Shown piece by piece: positions 34,582 through 38,690 of a DNA stretch of 64,000 nucleotides. The notes beneath the pieces were generated by a model that searched no databases, was not told the DNA's origin, and worked only from the letters and a program-made list of their open reading frames with translations. Numbering within the stretch: the stretch's first letter is position 1; the number at the start of each line of letters is the position of its first letter. The position numbers and the translations under genes were made by a program. Location of the stretch: assembly GCF_003555545.1 (NCBI RefSeq), contig NZ_CP032157.1:2050546-2114545 (forward strand), in the 5' to 3' direction. The DNA comes from Paraflavitalea soli (GTDB taxonomy: Bacteria > Bacteroidota > Bacteroidia > Chitinophagales > Chitinophagaceae).

Positions 34582-34611
34582 AGTAGACCACAAAGGTACC
34601 GTATTAAAAAT

Positions 34612-34623
34612 TGACAATTGTCA
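34612..34623. promoter_or_regulatory. Palindromic operator candidate for the Crp/Fnr regulator
   Basis: TGACAATTGTCA is a perfect 12-bp palindrome. With the preceding T it reads TTGAC-AATT-GTCAC, very near the TTGAC-N4-GTCAA variant of the FNR box (TTGAT-N4-ATCAA). It is 31 nt from the regulator start and 60 nt from the methyltransferase start. Confidence 0.55.
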
Positions 34624-34683
34624 CTTTTTGAATTGATAAAGGAGTGTAGCATCCCATGGCGCATACCGGTAGCTTTGCGGAAT

Positions 34684-35292
34684 ATGTCACCAGCCACCAA
34701 TTCTTTACTTCGTATGTCTGCCTGGTTTAAGTCAGATGAGCAATTCCATCACCTGTATCCCCTGTCCATGCAGCAGCTGGCAAAAAGACACTGGACCTCA
34801 TTGGTAGTAGCAGAAATGGTCGTGGAATTTCTTACCCCCTCCAAAGGCACCCGGGTGCTGGACATCGGCAGCGGGGTGGGCAAATTCTGTCTCACGGGCG
34901 CCTACCACAAACCTTCTTCCCATTTCTATGGTATTGAGCAACGCAAAGACCTGGTGGCCCATGCCGATACTGCCAGGCAAATAGTAGGATTGGACAATGC
35001 GCATTTTCTCCATGGCAATTTCACACAGCTCGACTTCAGCCAATACGACCATTTCTATTTTTACAATTCCTTTTATGAACACCTGGTAGACACGGATAAA
35101 ATAGATGAGAACATCACTTTTTCTGAGTCATTGTACAATTATTACACCCGGAGTCTCTACAAAAAGCTGGAACAGCTGCCTGCGGGTACCCGGCTGGCCA
35201 CTTTTCATACCCTGGAAGACCGGGTGCCACCTGGATACTACCTGGTAGAGACCCATATTGGCACTTTATTAAAGTACTGGATCAAAACCTGA
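34684..35292 (+). CDS. Class I SAM-dependent methyltransferase (first of two paralogues)
   Basis: A 202-residue Rossmann methyltransferase starting at ATG 34684 (ATG 34714 also possible). Motif I is VLDIGSGVGKFCLTGA near residue 55, with the acidic ribose ligand in FYGIEQRKDL. Motif IV is YDHFYFYNSFYEHL near 120. The protein is similar over its whole length to the product of 36142-36747. The N-terminus (DEQFHHLYPLSMQQLAKRHWTS) is shared too, suggesting substrate recognition by that segment. The substrate is unknown; there is no NPPY motif of N6-adenine enzymes. First gene of the operon controlled by the divergent Crp/Fnr regulator. Confidence 0.85.
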   Translation: MSPATNSLLRMSAWFKSDEQFHHLYPLSMQQLAKRHWTSLVVAEMVVEFLTPSKGTRVLDIGSGVGKFCLTGAYHKPSSHFYGIEQRKDLVAHADTARQIVGLDNAHFLHGNFTQLDFSQYDHFYFYNSFYEHLVDTDKIDENITFSESLYNYYTRSLYKKLEQLPAGTRLATFHTLEDRVPPGYYLVETHIGTLLKYWIKT

Positions 35293-35335
35293 ATGCCCGC
35301 ACGATACCCTATTGATAACCCTATAAAATAATAAG

Positions 35336-35638
35336 ATGGCAGCCGATATGGACATGGATCATGAAATAAGTACGGTTACAGAATCTTTGCGCTATGTGAG
35401 CGGTTACCTGGACTGTGAAAAGATAATTATTCGTAATATCCGCAAGCACCTGGAAAATGGAATAGATGAATCAAATATTGAAAACTACCTCAAGGCTCTG
35501 ATCGGCTACCTGGAGCGTTCTACCGAAACAGGCGAAGATGCCAATAAGCAAATGAACCACCGGTTTGTTATTGGTTTTATCTATACCCTGTTGAGAACTT
35601 CTTCCTGGAGAAGCTGGGTACAATCGATACAGATCTAA
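35336..35638 (+). CDS. Small helical protein following methyltransferase 1
   Basis: A 100-residue soluble protein without signal or transmembrane segment, not recognised. It looks all-helical (RYVSGYLDCEKIIIRNIRKHL, then YLKALIGYLERSTE). Its last 40 residues (LKALIGYLERS...DANKQMNHRFVIGFIYTLLRT, gapped) resemble those of the 95-residue protein at 36751-37038, which follows the second methyltransferase. So methyltransferase plus small protein may have been duplicated as a pair, and the small protein may be a partner or substrate-presenting subunit. It lies 43 bp downstream of the first methyltransferase. Confidence 0.7.
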   Translation: MAADMDMDHEISTVTESLRYVSGYLDCEKIIIRNIRKHLENGIDESNIENYLKALIGYLERSTETGEDANKQMNHRFVIGFIYTLLRTSSWRSWVQSIQI

Positions 35639-35651
35639 ACTATAATCTTTC

Positions 35652-36113
35652 ATGGCAACACCTGAAAAAAAAGTTCCCCCATCACCTGAAGCGGACCGCA
35701 AACCGGGCTACCTATGGAGCCTCATGCATCAAAAATGCGCCCGGTGCAGGCAGGGCAATATGTTCCAGCATAGTAACGCATATAACCTGAAGCAGTTCAT
35801 GAAAATGAACGACAACTGCCCGGCCTGTGACCAACGAATGGAGATAGAAGTTGGCTTTTACTATGGTACCAGCTATGTGAGTTATGCACTCACCGTGGCC
35901 TTGTCAGTCTCCACCTTTGTAGCCTGGTGGGTATTGATCGGGTTTTCAGTGCACGACAACCGCTTTTTCTGGTGGCTGGGCATCAATATCGCGGCGCTAC
36001 TCCTGCTTCAGCCCTACCTGATGCGGCTGTCGAGAGCTATCTGGCTGTCATTTTTTGTCCGTTATGATCCGGCCTGGAGAACGGAAAAGCCAGATCATAC
36101 GCCACGGGGTTAA
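35652..36113 (+). CDS. DUF983 membrane protein with zinc-ribbon-like CxxC motifs
   Basis: A 153-residue DUF983 protein. The cytoplasmic N-terminal part carries two CxxC pairs (KCARCRQGNMF at about 30-40 and NCPACDQ at about 57-63), typical of a small zinc ribbon. Two or three transmembrane helices follow (about 75-100 and 105-130). DUF983 proteins are common in Bacteroidota and alphaproteobacteria with no settled role. It lies 13 bp after the first small protein and 28 bp before the second methyltransferase, inside the Crp/Fnr-linked operon. Confidence 0.88.
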   Translation: MATPEKKVPPSPEADRKPGYLWSLMHQKCARCRQGNMFQHSNAYNLKQFMKMNDNCPACDQRMEIEVGFYYGTSYVSYALTVALSVSTFVAWWVLIGFSVHDNRFFWWLGINIAALLLLQPYLMRLSRAIWLSFFVRYDPAWRTEKPDHTPRG

Positions 36114-36141
36114 CAGCCTTCCTCACCCTAAATCTAATTGT

Positions 36142-36747
36142 ATGTCTACCGTTCCTGACAGTATTTTATTGGGCAAATATTTTACCGACGAGGCCGGCTT
36201 CCGTAACCTTTTTCCCCTCCCTATACAAAAACTGGACGCTTTGCATTGGTCGCCAATCACGGTGGCCGGCAAAGCTGTTCAGTTCCTGGCGCAGCATGAG
36301 GTGGTAAACATCCTTGACATCGGCAGCGGCATAGGCAAGTTTTGCCTCACAGGGGGTTCCATTCAACCAGCAGCTCATTTTTATGGTGTAGAGCAACGGG
36401 AAGACCTGGTAAAACAGGCAATCATTGTAGCACACAGGCTCGGTTTAAACAACGTGCATTTTATGCATAGCAACTTTACCCAGCTGGACCTGAAAGAGTA
36501 TGACCACTTCTATTTCTATAACTCCTTTTTTGAGAACCTGCCCGGAACAGATAAGATAGATGATAGTATTGCTTATTCGAGAGAGCTGTATAACTACTAT
36601 AGCCATTATCTCTACAAGCAACTGGAAGAAATGCCAGCCGGCACGCGCATCGTTACCTATTGCAGCTGGGGAGATGAGATACCTGACACTTATTCGCTGG
36701 TGGAAACCCATTTTGACAGTTTATTAAGATGCTGGATAAAAAGATAG
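36142..36747 (+). CDS. Class I SAM-dependent methyltransferase (second paralogue)
   Basis: A 201-residue enzyme starting at ATG 36142 (the frame runs back into the DUF983 gene, but that stretch is not conserved). It is clearly paralogous to the product of 34684-35292: motif I ILDIGSGIGKFCLTGG, then FYGVEQREDL, FTQLDLKEYDHFYFYNSFFENL, the PAGTR segment, and the same C-terminal end (LRCWIK against LKYWIK). Both keep the SAM-binding residues, so neither is a decayed copy. Divergence is high enough for the two to have different substrates. Confidence 0.85.
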   Translation: MSTVPDSILLGKYFTDEAGFRNLFPLPIQKLDALHWSPITVAGKAVQFLAQHEVVNILDIGSGIGKFCLTGGSIQPAAHFYGVEQREDLVKQAIIVAHRLGLNNVHFMHSNFTQLDLKEYDHFYFYNSFFENLPGTDKIDDSIAYSRELYNYYSHYLYKQLEEMPAGTRIVTYCSWGDEIPDTYSLVETHFDSLLRCWIKR

Positions 36748-36750
36748 ATC

Positions 36751-37038
36751 ATGAACACTACAATGGAAGATTATTGTCATAAGCTGGTCAACAAGATCCT
36801 GTTTGCGGCTTCCCAGGAGGAAGTGAAAAGGTATATTGATACAGCGATGAAAAGTATGGTAACCCATAAGGTTAACGGGCATATCATTGCCAGGTTTGCA
36901 GACAAGGCACTTCTTCATTTAAAGGAGTTTAGCCCTATGGACCAGGATGCGCAACAATGGACCAATATAAAAATGGCCATTTTGCTGTTTAACCAGCTGA
37001 AACGCACACTAAATAGTGGAGCTATCCCTATAAGTTAA
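36751..37038 (+). CDS. Small helical protein following methyltransferase 2
   Basis: A 95-residue soluble, probably all-helical protein that begins 3 nt after the methyltransferase stop, so translation is coupled. Not recognised. It is weakly similar to the 100-residue protein at 35336-35638 in length, position and C-terminal pattern (hydrophobic helix, then DAQQWTNIKMAILLFNQLKRT). Start codon ATG at 36751 is unambiguous. It ends 5 nt before the SulP gene. Confidence 0.7.
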   Translation: MNTTMEDYCHKLVNKILFAASQEEVKRYIDTAMKSMVTHKVNGHIIARFADKALLHLKEFSPMDQDAQQWTNIKMAILLFNQLKRTLNSGAIPIS

Positions 37039-37043
37039 GTATC

Positions 37044-38690
37044 ATGTTCAGGCCCAAACTGTTTGATACCCTCAAAAATTACAGTACTGCAGCGTTCGGC
37101 AAGGACCTGATGGCTGGCATTATTGTAGGTATTGTTGCCCTGCCGCTGGCCATTGCTTTTGCCATCGCCTCCGGGGTTTCGCCGGAGAAAGGGTTGTATA
37201 CGGCTGTCATTGCCGGCTTTATCATTTCGGCATTAGGCGGCAGCCGGGTACAGATCGGTGGTCCTACAGGCGCTTTTATTGTGATTGTGTACGGTATCGT
37301 ACAGCAATACGGAGAAAACGGATTGATCATTGCCACCTTTATGGCAGGTATTATGCTGCTGATGATGGGGTTTGCCCGTTTGGGTACCGTGATCCAATAC
37401 ATTCCCTACCCGTTGATCGTGGGATTTACCAGCGGCATTGCCGTATTGATCTTTTCTTCCCAGGTAAAGGATTTCCTGGGACTCCGGATGGGGGCAGTAC
37501 CGGCAGACTTTATCGACAAGTGGAAAAGTTTTGGGCTCCACCTGTACTCCGCCAACTGGTATGCTTTCCTCGTGGCCAGCGCCACCGTTATGATCATTAT
37601 ATTATGGCCGCGGATCACCCGCAAAGTACCGGGTTCGCTGATAGCCATCCTCCTTACTACCGCTGCTGCATCGGTATTGAACCTGCCCGTGGAAACCATT
37701 GGCAGTCGCTTTGGCCGTATCCCGTCCTCACTGCCCGCACCTGCTATACCCGCACTTGATCTTGCCACGATCAAAAACATGGTACAACCGGCTTTTACGA
37801 TCGCCCTGCTGGGAGGTATTGAATCGCTTTTATCGGCTGTAGTGGCCGATGGCATGATGGGTGGCAGGCACCGGTCCAACATGGAACTGGTGGCGCAGGG
37901 AGCGGCCAACATAGGATCTTCTGTGTTTGGAGGTATACCAGCCACAGGTGCCATTGCGCGTACAGCCACCAATATTAAAAATGGCGGGCGCACACCTGTT
38001 GCAGGTATTGTACATGCCATTACCCTGTTGTTGATCATGTTGCTGGTGGGCAAATGGGCCGCATTGATCCCCATGCCCACCCTGGCAGGTATATTGGTGG
38101 TGGTGGCTTATAACATGAGCGAGTGGCATAACTTCAAGTCCGTGTTGAAGGGAGCACGCAATGATGTAGCGGTGCTGCTGATCGTTTTTTTGCTTACGGT
38201 CCTGGTTGATCTTACCGTAGCCATTGAGATCGGAATCGTGCTGGCAGCTTTTCTGTTTATGCGGCAGATGATACAAACTACCGGTGTAAATGCCCTGTCC
38301 GGTAAAGAAGAAGCCGGTGATGAAAAATTCGGCAGCAGCTCCATCATCCCGGGTGTTGAGGTATTTGAGATCACTGGTCCGCTGTTCTTTGGCGCTGCCT
38401 GGAAATTCAAAGATGCCATGCGGCTTATTGAAAAGCCACCCAAAGTATTGATCATCCGTATGGGCCAGGTGCCTGTCATTGATGCTACCGGCATTAAAGT
38501 GATTGGGGAAGTGTACAGGGAATCAAAGCTTCGCCATACTAAGCTCATCTTGTCGGAAGTACATAGTAGCCACGTAATGGAGGCGCTGAAAGATGCCCGC
38601 CTGCTGTTTGCCATAGGGAAGGCCAATGTGACCGCCACCTTTGAGAAAGCCCTGGAGAGAAGCCACACCATAATAGCATCTGCGCTATGA
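37044..38690 (+). CDS. SulP/SLC26-family inorganic anion transporter with STAS domain
   Basis: A 548-residue inner-membrane transporter for sulfate, bicarbonate or related anions. The membrane domain (about 1-410) has the family segments DLMAGIIVGIVALPLAIAFA at 20-39 and GIPATGAIARTATNIKNGGRTP near 300. The cytoplasmic STAS domain (about 430-545) holds VIDATGIKVIGEVYRESK. It begins 5 nt after the second small protein gene and is the last gene of the operon. Which anion is moved cannot be told from sequence; neighbours give no sulfur-assimilation or carbonic anhydrase context. Confidence 0.94.
   Translation: MFRPKLFDTLKNYSTAAFGKDLMAGIIVGIVALPLAIAFAIASGVSPEKGLYTAVIAGFIISALGGSRVQIGGPTGAFIVIVYGIVQQYGENGLIIATFMAGIMLLMMGFARLGTVIQYIPYPLIVGFTSGIAVLIFSSQVKDFLGLRMGAVPADFIDKWKSFGLHLYSANWYAFLVASATVMIIILWPRITRKVPGSLIAILLTTAAASVLNLPVETIGSRFGRIPSSLPAPAIPALDLATIKNMVQPAFTIALLGGIESLLSAVVADGMMGGRHRSNMELVAQGAANIGSSVFGGIPATGAIARTATNIKNGGRTPVAGIVHAITLLLIMLLVGKWAALIPMPTLAGILVVVAYNMSEWHNFKSVLKGARNDVAVLLIVFLLTVLVDLTVAIEIGIVLAAFLFMRQMIQTTGVNALSGKEEAGDEKFGSSSIIPGVEVFEITGPLFFGAAWKFKDAMRLIEKPPKVLIIRMGQVPVIDATGIKVIGEVYRESKLRHTKLILSEVHSSHVMEALKDARLLFAIGKANVTATFEKALERSHTIIASAL

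Follow-up and report, generated by a model that had tools for sequence, protein, structure and literature searches.

A methyltransferase and SulP transporter operon beside a divergent regulator gene in Paraflavitalea soli, its predicted promoter, and a tentative link to inorganic carbon

The single 8.44-Mb contig of Paraflavitalea soli (NZ_CP032157.1) carries a compact run of six genes in which two class I methyltransferases, each followed by a small protein, are combined with a DUF983 membrane protein and a SulP-type anion transporter, next to a gene for a Crp/Fnr-type regulator. This operon was examined within the stretch from position 2,050,546 to 2,114,545, 64,000 nucleotides in length and referred to here as the window. 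The gene set is very likely a conserved regulated module, and a Crp/Fnr-type activator encoded beside the operon probably switches it on. The reading preferred here, at a probability of roughly 0.4, is that of an accessory Chitinophagaceae operon in which the activator governs a bicarbonate-type SulP transporter together with a methyltransferase/small-protein system for macromolecule modification.

The operon and its relatives

The six genes follow one another in the order MT1-small1-DUF983-MT2-small2-SulP with intergenic gaps of 43, 13, 28, 3, and 5 bp, and every open reading frame (ORF) runs from ATG to a stop codon without an internal stop (Table 1). An earlier sequence-only reading of this stretch had the gene positions right but the order wrong, in that both methyltransferase/small-protein pairs were said to precede DUF983; this gene instead lies between the two pairs, and the regulator gene is divergent to the operon. 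The nearest named loci belong to Chitinophagaceae, Paraflavitalea, and Niastella.

Table 1. Features of the regulator and operon region, in window coordinates.
Feature	Position	Strand	Basis or remark
Crp/Fnr-family regulator, 235 aa	33874..34581	-	PF00027 2.1e-19, PF13545 2.1e-16
Crp-type box 1, TTGACAATTGTCAC	34611..34624	+	Predicted centre ~ -64.5; family norm -63.5; conserved in relatives
Crp-type box 2	34633..34646	+	22 bp from box 1; predicted centre ~ -42.5; family norm -41.5; spacing to -7 element fixed in relatives
Bacteroidota -7 element, TAGCTTTG	34670..34677	+	Sequence and spacing to double box
MT1, class I S-adenosylmethionine (SAM) methyltransferase, 202 aa	34684..35292	+	Methyltransf_31 5.6e-10; SAM motif DIGSGVGKFC intact
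small1, 100 aa (family sm12)	35336..35638	+	Helical by relation to small2
DUF983 membrane protein, 153 aa	35652..36113	+	PF06170 26.8 bits, cut-off 22.6; CxxC pairs at residues 29 and 56
MT2, MT1 paralog, 201 aa	36142..36747	+	SAM motif intact; separate clade in tree
small2, 95 aa (family sm5), predicted four-helix bundle	36751..37038	+	3 bp after MT2; model confidence 91.3
SulP anion transporter with STAS domain, 548 aa	37044..38690	+	PF00916 1.2e-87, PF01740 2.5e-12

Association of this gene set with one regulator had been proposed from the window and is borne out in other genomes for a regulator of Crp/Fnr type. A first set of 81 loci was made up of the best 80 of 317 methyltransferase loci plus the window, with partners counted within six genes of the methyltransferase. 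The regulator was found in 61 of these, SulP in 39, DUF983 in 31, the small2 family in 31, a protein resembling the H protein of glycine cleavage (H-like) in 30, and the small1 family in 7; at least one partner family was present in 76 loci, at least two in 59, and at least three in 39. Only five protein clusters besides the methyltransferase reach 30 of the 81 regions. Co-conservation on this scale indicates that the operon is not a chance line-up, and the retention of the gene set amid variable gene order and differing flanking genes argues for function over shared ancestry alone. The order seen in the window is kept in loci L027 and L146, both with an H-like gene added in first place. The expected pairing of methyltransferase and small protein is likewise recovered, a methyltransferase being followed directly by a small2-family gene 22 times and by a small1-family gene 7 times in 94 directons. 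The gene lying directly divergent to a member of the regulator cluster encodes a methyltransferase in 35 cases, an H-like protein in 17, DUF983 in 4, and a cluster 14 protein in 1; these counts use the unfiltered cluster 1, where the regulator is mixed with other regulators, whereas the figure of 61 of 81 is filtered.

A second set of 60 regions from the same family, reduced to 49 by dropping 11 repeats and counted over the 48 with a called methyltransferase, agrees with the first more weakly: the regulator occurs in 24 loci, SulP in 20, the small2 family in 12, the H-like protein in 11, DUF1275 in 5, and DUF983 (notably rarer here) and cluster 14 in 4 each. The ORFs in these loci come from a simple caller that misses some genes; a long antisense ORF hides the first methyltransferase of L026, and the methyltransferase of L191 is likewise hidden, with regulator, H-like, small2-family, and SulP genes present.

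Some cassettes also carry DUF1275, YjdM, or a complex I-like membrane complex. Eight of the 81 loci contain a zinc-ribbon protein with a PhnA/YjdM domain (cluster 13), in most cases next to the cassette (e.g., L030 9268-9852, L040 9273-9860, L044 8849-9439, and L049 9363-9950). Cluster 14, a family of about 96 residues for which the single member scanned had no Pfam match, recurs in 8 loci close to the SulP and methyltransferase genes (e.g., L032 4690-5016, L034 11759-12076, and L080 12327-12617). Four Chitinophaga loci (L056, L064, L071, and L078) contain two facing islands of cassette genes, each beside its own regulator, the second island lacking a methyltransferase in L071 and L078.

An anti-phage defense role was rejected, the PADLOC models giving only partial mad2 matches to MT1 and MT2 (about 100 of 492 positions) and no match to the remaining five proteins at E <= 0.001. 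The suggestion that the system is undescribed stands, in that no description of the operon was found among the leading results of searches of the open-access literature, some of which were aimed at single parts, most subscription papers lying outside their scope.

A double Crp-type box upstream of the first gene

The regions between the regulator gene and the first gene of the operon share an architecture that did not figure in the sequence-only reading, consisting of two Crp-type boxes, with consensus TTGATAAAnnTCAC and, 22 bp further on, GTGATAAGGTTTAC, followed by the element TAnnTTTG. The double box is present with at most six mismatches in 56 of 68 non-redundant regulator-side regions and is accompanied by TAnnTTTG in 50, the element ending 37 bp (44 regions) or 38 bp (6 regions) downstream of the searched pattern; boxes of such quality are nearly absent from letter-shuffled regions, controls that preserve letter composition only. 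This placement of a double Crp-type box at a fixed distance from the Bacteroidota -7 element is new here. The window contains 1 match to the double box against 0.01 expected; its box 1 belongs to a 24-nt inverted repeat that is 92% complementary, and its two boxes form a direct repeat at the 22-bp spacing. A search of the P. soli genome for double boxes only, with a pattern drawn to include the window's own site, gave 1 match without mismatch and 3 with three mismatches, compared with 1 for the reversed control, and a wider regulon in this genome was not accepted on these numbers.

In a study of Flavobacterium johnsoniae, the last G of the -7 element is placed at -5 (PMC6847099), from which the box centers of the family would lie within one position of -41.5 and -63.5; the 38-bp spacing of the window would put its own centers at -42.5 and -64.5. 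The element ends 3-6 nt before the ATG in 25 of the 50 promoters, so that the mRNA would begin at the AUG or within about 2 nt of it, and for the window transcription is predicted to start 1-2 nt before the MT1 ATG, giving a near-leaderless mRNA. The choice of this ATG is supported by the homologue in L027, which aligns from MT1 residue 2 and lacks the second methionine of MT1. Positions near -41.5 and -63.5 are those of class II and class I activators, and the predicted sites, 22 bp apart, resemble Crp/Fnr promoters of these classes; they differ in the Bacteroidota -7 element, in the leaderless or near-leaderless start of half the promoters, and in the single well-matching site in the P. soli genome. 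Leaderless or near-leaderless starts are thus predicted for half of these promoters although leaderless mRNAs are a minority in the phylum, amounting to 5.5% in F. psychrophilum (PMC9723704), with about 3.7% of 5' untranslated regions under 10 nt in Bacteroides thetaiotaomicron (PMC7366714).

Transporter, H-like protein, and carbon-related neighbors

The transporter belongs to the SulP/SLC26 family, with bit scores of 294.6 for Sulfate_transp (cut-off 23.2) and 47 for STAS (cut-off 22.6). Its residues 20-394 align with PDB entry 6ki1 (2.5e-49), titled 'low affinity sulfate transporter', which we take to be BicA. It thus resembles the bicarbonate transporter BicA and the C4-dicarboxylate transporter DauA of Escherichia coli in both domains, in the aligned membrane part, and in its score of 508.3 bits against the DauA model, and it differs from them in missing both curated cut-offs and in sitting in an operon with methyltransferases. 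The earlier link to anion homeostasis is compatible with a SulP transporter, and a few relatives point more narrowly to bicarbonate or CO2.

A frequent further partner in relatives is the H-like protein, which was likewise absent from the sequence-only reading. It matches the glycine-cleavage H family PF01597 (4.8e-14 in L027), yet departs from a true H protein at the site of lipoylation: 44 of 48 aligned sequences lack lysine in the lipoyl column, which holds D in 31, E in 6, and K in 4, and of the four K rows two are true GcvH and two may be alignment shifts. Overlap between H-like and methyltransferase genes that are same-strand neighbors is seen in 6 of 23 pairs in the first set and, with repeats counted, in 10 of 18 in the 60-region set.

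A beta-carbonic anhydrase occurs at 6 places (L046, L101, L143, L184, L186, and L206) in 2.42 Mb of non-redundant locus DNA, compared with an expectation of 0.85 derived from 18 genomes of the same family, which contain 37 in about 104.8 Mb (P = 2.6e-4, ignoring relatedness). The count covers 152 loci including 11 repeats, with only non-redundant bases used, and leaves out a further carbonic anhydrase near a methyltransferase in L238, a locus fetched for that reason. In L046, L184, and L186, the carbonic anhydrase lies inside the methyltransferase's own gene run and has a signal-peptide-like start as judged by eye. In L066 (9561-16757) and L143 (6494-10626) the H-like and methyltransferase genes adjoin phosphoenolpyruvate carboxykinase (PEPCK), GcvH, and GcvT, with GcvP too in L066, whose carboxykinase is split over three ORFs. 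Because of these carbonic anhydrase, PEPCK, and glycine-cleavage genes in a few relatives, SulP is read as a bicarbonate importer; its anion is perhaps bicarbonate, and the neighborhood suggests an inorganic-carbon or one-carbon role for the operon.

Several observations weigh against the bicarbonate reading. Genes for carbonic anhydrase, PEPCK, and glycine cleavage are all missing from the operon in the window; the genome keeps its three carbonic anhydrases elsewhere and lacks a member of the H-like family, the closest match being 25% identical. Not every carbonic anhydrase locus is phylogenetically independent of the others, and the P value takes no account of this. SulP falls below three NCBIfam cut-offs, namely DauA (508.3 of 614 bits), generic SulP TIGR00815 (376.7 of 380.45), and BicA (253.3 of 880), and its substrate is therefore left unassigned by score. 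As to regulation and co-occurrence, no such double box is found in 12 of the 68 promoter regions and the box lacks the -7 element in 6; box 2 of the window keeps its left half, TTGATAA, and has a degenerate right half; in the second set 24 of 48 loci have no nearby regulator and all but 4 have no DUF983; and the methyltransferases of L141, L142, and L144 have none of these partners.

The best-surviving alternative, itself unlikely, is a low-oxygen or redox adaptation operon, in which the regulator would sense oxygen or respiratory state, DUF983, SulP, and the complex I-like complex of relatives would adjust respiration, the methyltransferase would tune a respiratory or translation component, and bicarbonate would be incidental. 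The regulator is well placed in the Crp/Fnr family (cNMP_binding 69.7 bits, cut-off 27.5; HTH_Crp_2 60.1 bits, cut-off 27), its best PDB match is an FNR-type protein (8.3e-21), and the boxes resemble FNR/CRP sites; there is, however, no cysteine among its 235 residues, and hence no FNR-type iron-sulfur cluster. Respiratory context is offered by DUF983, drawn in cytochrome oxidase operons with a COX4-like signature in one report (PMC4013037), and by the complex I-like genes that follow the cassette in L029 (8057-15737), L030 (13306-20573), L050 (11273-20564), and L075 (11295-20583), which include PF00361, PF00146, PF00420, and the 49-kDa and 20-kDa subunit families. A hydrogenase reading of these genes was rejected, since the large subunits of L030, L050, and L075, the three examined, lack CxxC and thus a NiFe site. 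Respiratory adaptation leaves the carbonic anhydrase and PEPCK/Gcv links unexplained.

Methyltransferases, small proteins, and their possible target

MT1 and MT2 are paralogs, as had been supposed, with 51% identity (103 of 201 positions, BLASTP E = 1e-79). The GxGxG-like SAM motif (DIGSGVGKFC in MT1, DIGSGIGKFC in MT2) and a Rossmann fold place them among class I SAM-dependent methyltransferases. In a tree of 113 methyltransferases, MT1 falls in a clade of 18 rows (support 89/95; 95/92 for the inner 16 rows) and MT2 in a separate clade of 14 rows (99/92), the bootstrap being not fully settled. Niastella and Paraflavitalea rows occur in both clades, for which reason the tandem pair looks older than these genera and MT1 and MT2 look like old tandem paralogs; one member of each clade is found together in 11 loci, the window included.

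The simple duplicated cassette first proposed is not supported as worded, given these separate clades and the divergence of the small proteins, which probably are distant relatives from different subfamilies. The claimed similarity of their ends was not recovered, small1 and small2 giving no BLASTP alignment at E <= 100 and only 14 identical columns when forced. Their relatedness emerges from the family profiles (8 members for small1, in 7 loci, and 32 for small2), which align over 84 columns with an hhalign probability of 93% and E = 2.7e-7. Both subfamilies can come after one methyltransferase (L050, L068, and L075).

The model of small2 (predicted local distance difference test, pLDDT, 91.3) has helices at residues 5-17, 22-38, 43-58, and 67-89 and predicts a four-helix bundle. 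Database searches named no family for either protein: small1 had no significant match in Pfam, NCBIfam, or PHROGs, small2 had only a weak PHROGs match (0.024), and a Foldseek search with small2 returned nothing at E <= 0.001. Designed helical proteins were the best PDB sequence matches (0.0026), from which no relative was named, and Pfam matches of 34 aligned members were scattered, with at most 2 members per listed family and values up to E = 0.00073. A vitamin B12 link was dropped, as the VIA-align Z values of small2 with AerR (8.9) and a cobalamin-binding domain (8.6) are under the tool's meaningful level for helical bundles.

A macromolecular target of methylation is plausible. The predicted fold fits both tRNA and protein-lysine enzymes, but no specific curated family is matched. 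The AlphaFold2 model of MT1 (pLDDT 85.5, with residues 131-140 under 50) has TrmN (Z 16.9), Trm11 (16.8), and Trm14 (16.1), all tRNA enzymes, as its closest folds by Z. Further neighbors, all of class I, are the archaeal lysine methyltransferase aKMT (5fa8, Z 15.9, 147 residues aligned, root-mean-square deviation 2.9), a CbiT-type precorrin methyltransferase (15.7), and the DOT1-type structures 9ne1, which is bacterial and DOT1L-like (Z 15.5, 168 aligned, deviation 3.2), and 7xct (14.1). The fold match to the DOT1L-like enzyme and to aKMT takes in the whole domain; the tRNA enzymes match as well, TrmN and Trm11 ranking higher. By sequence profile the best PDB match is the protein lysine methyltransferase 5dnk (1e-6), over the SAM-binding part only. 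All 36 aligned members of the family (METHYLTRANSFERASE) match Methyltransf_31, and 26 of them also match DOT1 (PF08123) at E <= 0.01. DOT1 membership was nevertheless rejected, MT1 scoring 17.7 bits against a Pfam cut-off of 23, MT2 being absent from the listed matches, and a PF08123 search of the P. soli genome giving 0 matches at E <= 0.001.

These folds, along with partial matches to TrmB and RlmD models far under cut-off, would also suit an RNA-modification operon, in which MT1 and MT2 are tRNA or rRNA methyltransferases and the transporter genes are co-regulated but functionally separate. This is quite unlikely: lysine and RNA enzymes give similar Z values, neither protein (202 and 201 residues) matched an additional RNA-binding domain, and the family is patchily distributed and linked to transporters, an uncommon pattern for core translation enzymes. 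With a limited number of candidates scored per genome, the methyltransferase family was found in 75 of 294 genomes of its own family at E <= 1e-30 and in 10 of 395 Bacteroidota genomes, from five families, at E <= 1e-50; the remaining listed matches in the phylum are at E >= 2.8e-9 and align mostly over the SAM-binding part. Detoxification or homeostasis of a small metabolite or anion, with SulP moving a non-carbonate anion and the methyltransferase acting on it or a related metabolite, fits the missed SulP substrate cut-offs and the weak similarity that MT1 shows to a model for arsenite methyltransferase (1.7e-5, 24.5 of 263 bits), but is highly improbable, there being no known metal(loid) gene family among the recurrent clusters identified and the H-like and four-helix partners better suiting a macromolecular target. 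For the lipid or small-metabolite methylation earlier suggested, no evidence was found on either side.

What can be read from the DNA is the set of genes, the geometry of the promoter, the predicted folds, and the state of the motifs; in the preferred bicarbonate reading we infer from these the signal, the anion transported, the target of methylation, and the formation of a complex. The activator, on a low-oxygen/redox or carbon-supply signal, would bind the two predicted sites at about -41.5 and -63.5 and switch on a short-leader or leaderless transcript. SulP would import bicarbonate or a related anion, assisted in some relatives by an exported carbonic anhydrase, and the imported bicarbonate would feed carboxylation and glycine/one-carbon reactions. 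The small helical protein, often together with the pseudo-H-protein, would hold the methyltransferase, which would modify a macromolecule, proposed to be a protein (lysine-type) and possibly a component of the same carbon metabolism; MT1 and MT2 may act on different substrates or with different partners. A more specific version, speculative and rather improbable, makes the methyltransferase, the four-helix protein, and the lipoyl-less H-protein parts of a new complex for protein modification; the activator would switch it on through a leaderless mRNA, and it would methylate an enzyme of carboxylation or one-carbon metabolism (e.g., of the glycine cleavage system), so adjusting metabolism to the supply of CO2/bicarbonate or oxygen.

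The operon is made of known parts and unnamed families in a combination apparently undescribed in soil bacteria. It ties orphan methyltransferases, unnamed small-protein families, and an H-protein without its lipoylation site to one regulator and one promoter architecture. The fixed double-box promoter, with its predicted start at or near the AUG, would serve as a clean natural model of how an activator drives leaderless transcription in the phylum. If the carbon reading is true, non-autotrophic soil Bacteroidota would own a regulated bicarbonate-supply module with a protein-modification arm.

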